DNA of 37,573 nt from Aquificota bacterium (GTDB taxonomy: Bacteria > Aquificota > Aquificia > Aquificales > QOAS01), in NCBI GenBank assembly GCA_013153315.1, contig JAADES010000003.1, forward strand, positions 1-37,573, in the 5' to 3' direction. Shown piece by piece: positions 35,161-37,061 of this stretch (positions are counted from its first letter, which is position 1; each line of letters opens with the position of its first letter). The notes below the pieces were generated by a model. It was given only the letters and a program-made list of their open reading frames with translations, searched no databases and was not told where the DNA came from. Position numbers and translations under genes: made by a program.

Positions 35161-35286
35161 CTCCCCGCTAAAGCGGGGAGTTTCTCAGCCTCTAAAAGCG
35201 TTGTTAAAGGAGGCTGAGCTATTACTACCCTTAGCAGGTAGTAGGGCGTGCCTGTCCCTCCTACGGGGTGGCTCTAAGCCACCACC
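35161..35286 (-). ncRNA. Candidate omega-RNA (reRNA) at the tnpB 3' end
   Basis: The minus strand folds into four consecutive hairpins. GGTGGCT/AGCCACC spans 35267-35283, TACTACC/GGTAGTA 35223-35243, CTCAGCCTC/GAGGCTGAG 35184-35218 with a 17-nt loop, and CTCCCCGCT/AGCGGGGAG 35161-35180 at the end. This series overlapping the last codons of tnpB is what is known for TnpB guide RNAs, whose 3' guide comes from the flanking DNA. The guide would begin after the last hairpin, in the space before argS. The tnpB tail (GGLEPPRRRDRHALLPAKG) is the translation of this RNA. Confidence 0.75.
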
Positions 35287-35835
35287 GATGTAGGTTTCTC
35301 TCTTTATAACCTCGTGTTTTTTAACATCTACCCTAAAAACTATCAATTTGAATTTCTCTTTTAGTTTGTTTTCAAAAATAAAACCTCTCTTTAGTTTTAA
35401 ATTGAAAAAGTTCCTTGCAATTCCTAAAGAGCCCACAAAATCTCTATGAAACTTAAATCCACATTTAGAACACTTATAGTTTCTGTTATTTGTTTTATTT
35501 TTCTGTCCACACACGGGACAAAGTTGGGTGGAAAACCTTTCGCTTACTTCCACCACTTTAACCCCGTATGCGGAAAGTTTATTTTTAATTTTTTCAATTA
35601 ACTTCCTAAATCTCCAAATTAAATGGATTTTCCTATTAGCGTTTTTGTTATATTTTGCTTTTTCTCTTATACCTTTTACATCACCTATTACAACTGTTCC
35701 TATTTTGTTTTCTAAGCAATAATCTAACAACTTTTTGATATATTTGTTTTCCAAATCCTCTATTTGCCGTTCCACTTTCCATATTTGGTTGTTTAAAGAA
35801 TCTTCTACTCTTTGGTATCTCCTACTTCCTTCCTG
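35185..35835 (-). pseudogene. tnpB: TnpB, C-terminal part (RuvC-II, zinc finger, RuvC-III)
   Basis: This is the second half of a broken TnpB. The frame opens at QEGSRRYQRV just after the 41-nt palindromic insertion and runs 216 residues; the first in-frame possible start is a GTG at 35775. It has the RuvC-II region GTVVIGDVKGIRE, in which the usual catalytic Glu is Gly. The zinc finger is CPVCGQ ... CSKCGFKF, and RuvC-III Asp is in FHRDFVGSLGIARN. Glu residues 45 and 48 positions after that Gly (VEVSERFSTQLC) could serve instead, as described for TnpB and Fanzor proteins with a rearranged site. The end overlaps the omega-RNA. Confidence 0.88.
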
Positions 35836-36626
35836 TTAACAATAGCACCCTCCCCTAAAGGGGAGGGATTAACGCTTTTATGTGCTAAAAGTTTTTGTTT
35901 AATGGATATAAGTTTAAATCTTTTGTGCTTTAAACATCTTATGTATCTACCATTAAATAGAGCGAATTGATTGTTGGTCTCATCGTAGCAAGCAAAAGGA
36001 TGTATTTCTCCTAAATCCACAAATAACCTTTTCTTTCTCTCTACATCTTGTTTTTGGTCGGGATATTTGATAATTAGATTTACAATCAACCTTCCGAATT
36101 TTTTGGTTAAAACCGCCTGTCTAATTTCTCCACCGAATTGATTTAGCCATTTATCAAGGAGTTTAAGATGTTTCTTTTTAAGTTTAACTATAAGCGGTTC
36201 TTTTCTCCTTGCATTGGGAAGGATTAATTTTCTTCCATCAAATCTGATAGCTTGATTTTTCCAAATGATAATGTGTTGGTTTCTTCTGGAAGGATAATTA
36301 TGGTTTTTATCTATAAACCTGTTTTTAACGGCGGTTTTAATAGACCCTATTAGGTAGTCAATAATTGCTTGTGTAGTTTGAGAATGAAGCAAGGAAGATT
36401 TAACCGTTTTTTGAATTTTATTTTTTAGGGAATTGAAAAATTTTAGAAATTCTTTTTTACTTTCAGAGGAGTTTTGTTTAAGCAAATCAAAAAGGTAGTT
36501 TTCGTTAAGTTGGTCTAATGCCAAATCTAAGGCTCTGTTCCAAACGTTGGCACTTTCAAAGGTTAGAGGAAGTATAGATGGCCCTAAGTGTTTTGGAAGT
36601 TTGATTTTTATAACCGCAAAGGCCAT
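35805..36626 (-). pseudogene. tnpB: TnpB, N-terminal part (WED/REC and RuvC-I)
   Basis: The first half of TnpB, the RNA-guided nuclease of IS200/IS605 elements. The frame is 273 residues, of which 1-250 are TnpB: an N-terminal wedge region, a helical recognition part rich in Lys, and the RuvC-I Asp in LFVDLGEIHPFACYD (D204) followed by GRYIRCLKHKRFKLI. Residues 251-264 are translated from a palindromic insertion, after which the frame ends. Joined without the insertion, K250 would run directly into QEGSRRY, giving about 466 residues, a normal length. The ATG has AAGGAAG 6 nt upstream. Confidence 0.88.
35836..35876 (+). repeat. Palindromic element, copy 1, inside tnpB
   Basis: A 41-nt insertion that breaks tnpB. 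It consists of TTAACAATAGCA, the stem CCCTCCCC/GGGGAGGG (35848-35855 and 35860-35867) with loop TAAA, and ATTAACGCT. Removing it restores the reading frame and a normal TnpB sequence (HK joined to QEGS), which fixes the boundaries to within two bases. Its length is not a multiple of three, so it shifts the frame by minus one. Confidence 0.85.
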
Positions 36627-36710
36627 TTATACTTCCTTAAATTTTTAAGAAAAAAAAATTACTAAGTAAAAAATGACATTAATCATACTCTGCCATTCAT
36701 GAAGCCCGTT

Positions 36711-36775
36711 CGTTAACCCTCTCTACAATAGCACCCCTTAAAAAGGGGATTAACGCTTTTAGAGAGGGGTTAACG
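36711..36775 (+). repeat. Outer palindrome enclosing palindromic element copy 2
   Basis: CGTTAACCCTCTCT (36711-36724) and AGAGAGGGGTTAACG (36761-36775) are complementary over 14 bp with one extra G. Between them sits a complete ACAATAGCA...TTAACGCTTTT element. On the right side the stem runs into GTTAACGCTT, the usual right flank of the family, so the outer structure is itself a likely family member. Confidence 0.7.
36725..36760 (+). repeat. Palindromic element, copy 2 (nested)
   Basis: ACAATAGCA, stem CCCCTT-aaa-AAGGGG (36734-36748), ATTAACGCTTTT. Flanks match copy 1; the stem differs. It occupies the loop of the larger CCCTCTCT/AGAGAGGG stem. Confidence 0.8.
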
Positions 36776-36777
36776 CT

Positions 36778-36817
36778 TAACAATAGCACACATGCTTTTA
36801 AGCATGTGTTAACGCTT
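36778..36817 (+). repeat. Palindromic element, copy 3
   Basis: TAACAATAGCA, stem CACATGCTT/AAGCATGTG (36789-36808) with a TT loop, then TTAACGCTT (36809-36817). It directly abuts the right flank of the preceding outer palindrome. The stem is unrelated in sequence to copies 1 and 2 but fully self-complementary. Confidence 0.8.
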
Positions 36818-36851
36818 AAAGGGCGAAATAAAATTTACGAAGTAAATAGCT

Positions 36852-36894
36852 ATGAAGCCGCGTAGCGGCGGAATAAGATTTAGTTCCTAAATCT
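36852..36894 (+). repeat. Double-hairpin element, copy 2 (intact)
   Basis: ATGAAGCC with stem GCCGC-gta-GCGGC (36857-36869), then GGAATAA and the second stem AGATTTAG-ttc-CTAAATCT (36876-36894). Compared with copy 1 the spacer sequences are conserved while both stems vary with compensating changes (ATTTAC/GTAAAT against ATTTAG/CTAAAT). Confidence 0.7.
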
Positions 36895-36947
36895 GTATCC
36901 CTTAGCTGTTTCTTTTTACTGAAAAACTCTATGGAAGAAAAATAAAG

Positions 36948-36981
36948 GCCAAAAAGCAAAGGGCTTTCTGGCGGGTTTTTT
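36948..36981 (+). terminator. Rho-independent terminator with no plus-strand gene before it
   Basis: GCCA and TGGC enclose the inner stem AAAGC/GCTTT (36948-36972), followed by GGG and a run of six T (36976-36981). The nearest upstream plus-strand gene ends at 30594, so it probably ends an RNA made from the palindrome cluster. Confidence 0.6.
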
Positions 36982-37061
36982 GTAAGCGGAGGTTTTAAAT
37001 TTTTTGTATTTAATTATTCTCCAAACTATGTTCCTAAATTTACTAAACTCTTAATTGCTTC

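Follow-up and report, generated by a model that had tools for sequence, protein, structure and literature searches.

Hairpin elements in a tnpB insertion sequence

Positions 1 to 37,573 of contig JAADES010000003.1 from an Aquificota bacterium (assembly GCA_013153315.1), referred to here as the window, carry a cluster of small palindromic elements in and beside a tnpB gene. An original prediction made from the sequence alone had described three plus-strand copies with common flanks and unrelated stems, and all three are present exactly, with perfectly paired stems. The first, element A (35839-35877), reads ACAATAGCA - CCCTCCCC taaa GGGGAGGG - A - TTAACGCTT followed by TTTA, and scores 67.6 bits in the covariance-model search described below. 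Element C (36725-36758) reads ACAATAGCA - CCCCTT aaa AAGGGG - A - TTAACGCTT, and element D (36780-36817) reads ACAATAGCA - CACATGCTT tt AAGCATGTG - TTAACGCTT. Element D has paralogs at C4 and C25 in which the loop is reverse-complemented (aa).

Several features of the locus had escaped the original prediction. Element C is nested in the tip of a fourth plus-strand element, B (36711-36778), which has the left flank CGTTAAC rather than ACAATAGCA, the stem CCCTCTC/GAGAGGG and the right flank TTAACGCTT. The tip of B forms a 7-bp dyad exactly around TA, and C, with TA on either side, sits exactly at this dyad of the B stem. Element A lies within tnpB. The other copies, B, C and D, were inserted into the left end of the insertion sequence that carries tnpB (36685-36985, plus strand), a branched multi-hairpin region with a DNA fold z of -5.9. 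Left ends of tnpB/tnpA insertion sequences form branched, cloverleaf-like hairpins closed by CGCCA...TGGCG here and elsewhere (L242 around 19237 and L249 around 1280, both minus strand), and the stems of their arms ATGAAGCC..GGCGGAATA likewise vary between copies. Also unrecorded was a probable relic at 35184-35218 (minus strand), a hairpin CTCAGCCTC/GAGGCTGAG downstream of tnpB that was read by eye. Its loop, CTTTAACAACGCTTTTA on the minus strand, is probably two element ends joined with the hairpin gone (TTTAACA...ACGCTTTTA), a relic of deletion.

The host gene tnpB (35185-36626, minus strand) is of the IS200/IS605 type, a family of RNA-guided nucleases, and matches Cas12f1-like_TNB (3.8e-19) and guided_TnpB (3.4e-27). 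It lies in two frames (36626-35805 and 35775-35185) broken at element A, which is antisense to it and would be translated in the tnpB direction as KSVNPSPLGEGAIV. Removing element A together with one TA leaves the two halves one frame apart, so either the insertion cost one base or the gene had been broken earlier. No DNA paralogs of this tnpB were close enough to date the insertion in the window.

A second seeming family, TATGAAG...CGGAATA, was rejected: it is merely the hairpin at the left end of the insertion sequence, with three matches in the same genome and congeners at the level of the control.

Copy number and distribution

Each flank taken singly occurs at chance frequency within the window, but in the whole 1.35-Mb genome (G000, phylum Aquificota, assembly about 95% complete) the pattern ACAATAGCA-N12-30-TTAACGCTT matches 25 times and its reversed control 0 times, so the co-occurrence of the two flanks is not due to chance. 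With shortened flanks, CAATAGCA-N8-38-TTAACGC, the matches rise to 42, again against 0 in the reversed control. The further copies for which such a search had been suggested are therefore plentiful. A covariance model made from nine copies recovered 50 matches in this genome at E ≤ 0.05.

The family is confined to one Aquificota genus. The search covered 136 Aquificota genomes, consisting of G000, six congeners (G001-G006) and 129 others; the covariance model found five copies in G004, one in each of four other congeners and none in G001, and it had no match in the remaining 129 genomes. The copies of G002, G005 and G004 at L180, L181 and L184 share the context TTTGCAC..TA[element]TA..GGTGCC, a hairpin without a match in Rfam. 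In general genome contigs the flank pattern matched 106 stretches, all of them by chance except L153, from Aquificota isolate L_MaxBin.033 (JAADCT01), the sole true hairpin among them. All 111 matches in viral contigs were likewise due to chance, none having a stem that reached 5 bp. Rfam families other than tRNAs matched neither the window nor 20 further loci, and literature searches returned no account of such elements in Aquificales or Aquificota, which does not disprove that one exists.

Constant flanks and compensating stems

The elements are about 30-42 nt long, and the typical unit is TA-(A)CAATAGCA-stem(6-9)-loop(2-4)-stem-(G/A)-TTAACGCT(T/C/A..)-TA. The left flank also occurs as CATTAAC, CGTTAAC, CACTAGCA or CACTGGCA with the right flank unchanged, and a single stem can be combined with several left flanks: CACCAGC follows CATTAA at C3 and C56, and CAATAGCA at C18. 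In some copies the flanks themselves are predicted to pair as a foot helix (AGC/GCT) from which (A)TTAAC bulges out unpaired; GCT is kept in 38 of 43 CAATAGCA-type copies.

Between these flanks the stems vary freely. The 51 single copies have 34 distinct 5' arms, and stems that differ share only 50% identity. Over the first six stem positions, 95% are paired within a copy, as compared with 50% when arms are swapped between copies. When nine copies of equal length are aligned, 100% of the cells are paired and six of the eight pairs vary on both sides; none of 500 shuffles equals the covariation score.

The original prediction had taken constant flanks and compensating stems to mean that the shape of the hairpin is what is kept. 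The family and the compensation are upheld. The shape need not owe its persistence to usefulness, and the loops point to template switching instead. Among six cases in which identical arms enclose more than one loop, the loops are exact reverse complements in four: CACCAGC with tttc/gaaa, CCCACGC with tac/gta, CACATGCTT with aa/tt and CTCCGCCT with aa/tt. The last pair comes from two species, G004 and G003, which share the flanking site (L040, L041). Template switching within hairpins during replication has been described as leaving two footprints, inversion of the loop and compensatory changes of several bases (PMC8794818), and the inverted loops between copies with identical stems suggest that this process has acted here. 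Because template switching rewrites both arms by mutation alone, compensating stems need no selection on the stem and can be explained without it. Three copies with one mismatch in the stem (L007, L171, L174) look like uncorrected intermediates.

Occupied and empty sites

Evidence of movement comes from a gene at C21:3054 which we take, from a reading of its sequence, to be HolB, the clamp-loader delta-prime subunit. Its product has 14 extra residues, SVNPSPLGEGAIVK, encoded by a 42-nt insert that is exactly absent from all six congeners; the insertion point lies in a T run that ends with TA. The same element subfamily is found in frame in PurH, where the insert near the start also amounts to 14 residues (L217 around 1627), and in a signal-peptide protein. 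Further copies lie in frame in Nth, PanE, a TnpB and an outer-membrane-like protein, the last containing a nested pair within its signal peptide (L237 around 1601). Such in-frame copies bear out the likeness to Rickettsia palindromic elements that had been proposed. Copies inside genes occur in both orientations, which disfavours a simple transcription terminator.

Paralogous sequences within the genome provide additional pairs of sites. C7:17919 is occupied and its C4 counterpart is empty (CCTTGC-A-GGGGTGG); the tip or loop of a C4 hairpin holds two copies and the corresponding C7 hairpin none; and at C3:24820 an inner copy lies in the tip of an outer copy, whereas the C21 paralog has the outer copy only. 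Composite nests occur at two sites, C20 and C34, with extra inner copies in the C34 version. Comparison of occupied and empty sites, which had been suggested for strains, thus shows in the assembled genomes that the elements are mobile and insert precisely, and that empty sites exist.

These data also bear on the view that the hairpins are not mobile as such, being structural arms of insertion-sequence ends or guide RNAs that spread with those and by recombination. Many copies do lie in hairpins of tnpB/tnpA element ends, but the clean insertions in HolB, PurH and other genes are away from any insertion sequence, and the nested occupied and empty pairs fit no better. The strong form of this view is ruled out by the empty HolB sites, and we regard what is left of it as highly improbable.

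Insertion at TA and at hairpin tips

The elements prefer TA and, beyond this, TA in the tips of hairpins that were already present. TA (or TAA) directly to the left together with TA no more than three bases from the right flank was found in 27 of 48 distinct contexts, as compared with 2.9% of random positions. Of 37 TA-bounded sites, 13 have the TA in the loop of a stem of 5 bp or longer, as do only 3.5% of the remaining TAs in these loci, and 3 have an exact dyad of 5 bp or longer around the TA, versus 0.13%. Insertion at the dyad is seen in nests, for example L031 and 36711-36778 in the window. The elements thus stack in the end hairpins of insertion sequences and in each other. The bias toward tips may be the choice of the mobilising enzyme, or tips may merely be places where insertions are tolerated. 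TA borders arising by target duplication and TA carried by the element are indistinguishable here.

Candidate mobilising enzymes

IS200/IS605 Y1 transposase genes (PF01797) were found in only two of the seven genomes of the genus, G000 and G004, the two richest in copies. G000 has one (L208 1480-1905, minus strand), which contains an in-frame TGA; G004 has two, one intact (L207, encoding 145 aa) and one cut by a contig end. The G000 gene and the intact G004 gene each adjoin an element, in the left end of the transposon. A Y1 gene next to a copy would also suit REP-type (repetitive extragenic palindromic) elements mobilised by a domesticated REP-associated Y1 transposase (RAYT/TnpA-REP), as would the size, the single hairpin and the fixed tag with subfamily-specific stems (PMC3733652); TnpA-REP, moreover, recognises bulged hairpins (PMC8266576). 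However, the GTAG/CGTC tag is absent, inverted-pair organisation was not seen, and NCBIfam assigns both Y1 proteins to IS200/IS605 TnpA (150.5 and 106.9 bits); against the REP-associated model, one scores 33.7 bits (cut-off 80) and the other has no match. We therefore consider a REP/RAYT system unlikely.

The TA on either side of copies, and the near-perfect inverted ends CGTTAAC...GTTAACG of some of them, could suggest tiny miniature inverted-repeat transposable elements moved by a TA-targeting DDE transposase of the IS630/Tc1-mariner type, with duplication of the TA target. No terminal inverted repeats held in common with an autonomous DDE element were found: the ends of the common form are unlike (ACAATAGCA vs AAGCGTTAA), and DDE_3/IS630 genes are absent from all seven genomes. 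A duplex of 30-42 bp is also too short for its two ends to be joined easily, and to our knowledge enzymes that bind terminal inverted repeats do not tolerate freely varying subterminal sequence. This origin, too, is improbable.

The densest cluster in the genome, four copies at C39:20220-22273, surrounds an IS110-like open reading frame, which raises the question of insertion mediated at the RNA level or by IS110 with its bridge RNA. A point in its favour is that IS110 recombination leaves a shared core dinucleotide. Bridge RNAs nonetheless specify longer targets, and the insertion sites have little in common past TA. The distribution also fits poorly, since IS110 was found only in G000, where copies bracket it, and in G002, which has a single copy, and we judge this route very unlikely. 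The IS110-family gene (L240 2220-4290; G000:C39:20220-22290), with four hairpin elements around it, is followed by two small open reading frames and has a weak match, below the cut-off, to TIGR-Tas endonuclease.

By exclusion, and by its fit with the structure-reading, single-strand transposition known from REP and IS608 (PMC8266576), a Y1 enzyme appears to be the best candidate. We propose, with a probability of roughly 0.6, that the elements are non-autonomous single-hairpin mini-elements moved by an IS200/IS605 Y1 transposase acting on single-stranded DNA, and that their stems are rewritten by template switching. The HUH/Y1 enzyme would read a folded single-strand hairpin together with its short flanks, recognising either a foot, AGC...GCT, in which (G)TTAAC bulges out unpaired, or a fully paired CGTTAAC...GTTAACG, and would cleave at a TA-ending site on each side. 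Since shape and flanks would be all that is read, the sequence of the stem would be irrelevant to mobility. Template switching between the arms during replication would rewrite both jointly and invert loops, so that stems drift and pairing persists. More tentatively, the element may be a mini-transposon that homes to hairpin tips, a folded single strand of about 30-42 nt that enters TA at the tips of other hairpins, including its own copies, with template switching rewriting the stems and only flanks and shape being inherited.

Several observations weigh against the Y1 proposal. In the genome richest in copies, an in-frame TGA interrupts the sole Y1 gene seen, which implies either that movement there is over or that the enzyme was not seen in an assembly about 95% complete. 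Presence of Y1 in two of seven genomes is a thin correlation, and every single-copy genome lacks it. TA on both sides is missing from 21 of the 48 contexts, the right end is loose (T, TT, TTT, TC or TA ahead of the final TA) as compared with a classical transposase end, and no excised or circular intermediate is visible from sequence.

Relation to known elements

The family is a very small mobile DNA with demonstrable empty and occupied sites, and offers a rare natural record of how such hairpins spread and change. It separates the parts that a mobilising enzyme would have to read, flanks and shape, from a part that is free, the stem. It also cautions that perfect stem covariation in a repeat is not proof of selected function, as template switching can produce it. 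Hairpins can accrete stepwise into large branched structures, including the ends of TnpB elements and probable guide-RNA regions.

Rickettsia palindromic elements (RPEs) are dispersed and occur in frame within protein genes, housekeeping genes among them (PMC10969869). HolB, PurH, Nth, PanE and the signal-peptide proteins carry palindromic in-frame inserts of the same sort, extending this phenomenon from Rickettsia to Aquificota. RPEs, however, are about 150 bp long, with conserved peptides and the sequence of named families, whereas the present elements measure about 30-42 nt and have free stems, tip nesting and TA borders. They resemble the subterminal hairpins of IS200/IS605, which are read as folded single strands, and the ends of IS200/IS605 elements harbour copies here; a full element of that type carries a hairpin at either end plus a gene or cargo, whereas the present elements are single hairpins.

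The original prediction held the elements to be unlike REP sequences, which is too strong. The GTAG and CGTC superfamilies of REPs are 20-50 nt long, with one hairpin and a fixed foot tag, and their stems undergo complementary changes between families and subfamilies (PMC3733652). Small size, a single hairpin, a fixed tag and a variable stem are thus shared. The differences are that both flanks are fixed here (7-9 nt each), that one genome holds 34 kinds of stem in 51 copies, that the foot has no GTAG/CGTC (the flanks being CAATAGCA or CRTTAA, and TTAACGC), that there is no RAYT, and that nests, along with in-frame copies in genes, stand out.

Yeast mitochondrial GC clusters such as GC42 are 42-bp hairpins with a dinucleotide target, presence or absence among strains, and mergers between palindromic clusters (PMC4478555). 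Both are mobile, merging hairpins, but GC42, from another domain of life, conserves its stems and changes mostly in its loops, whereas here flanks are kept and stems change. In behaviour REPs, RPEs and yeast GC clusters are the nearest relatives; as the defining sequence features of REPs and RPEs are lacking, we file the family as a variant of a broad kind, the small mobile palindromic element.
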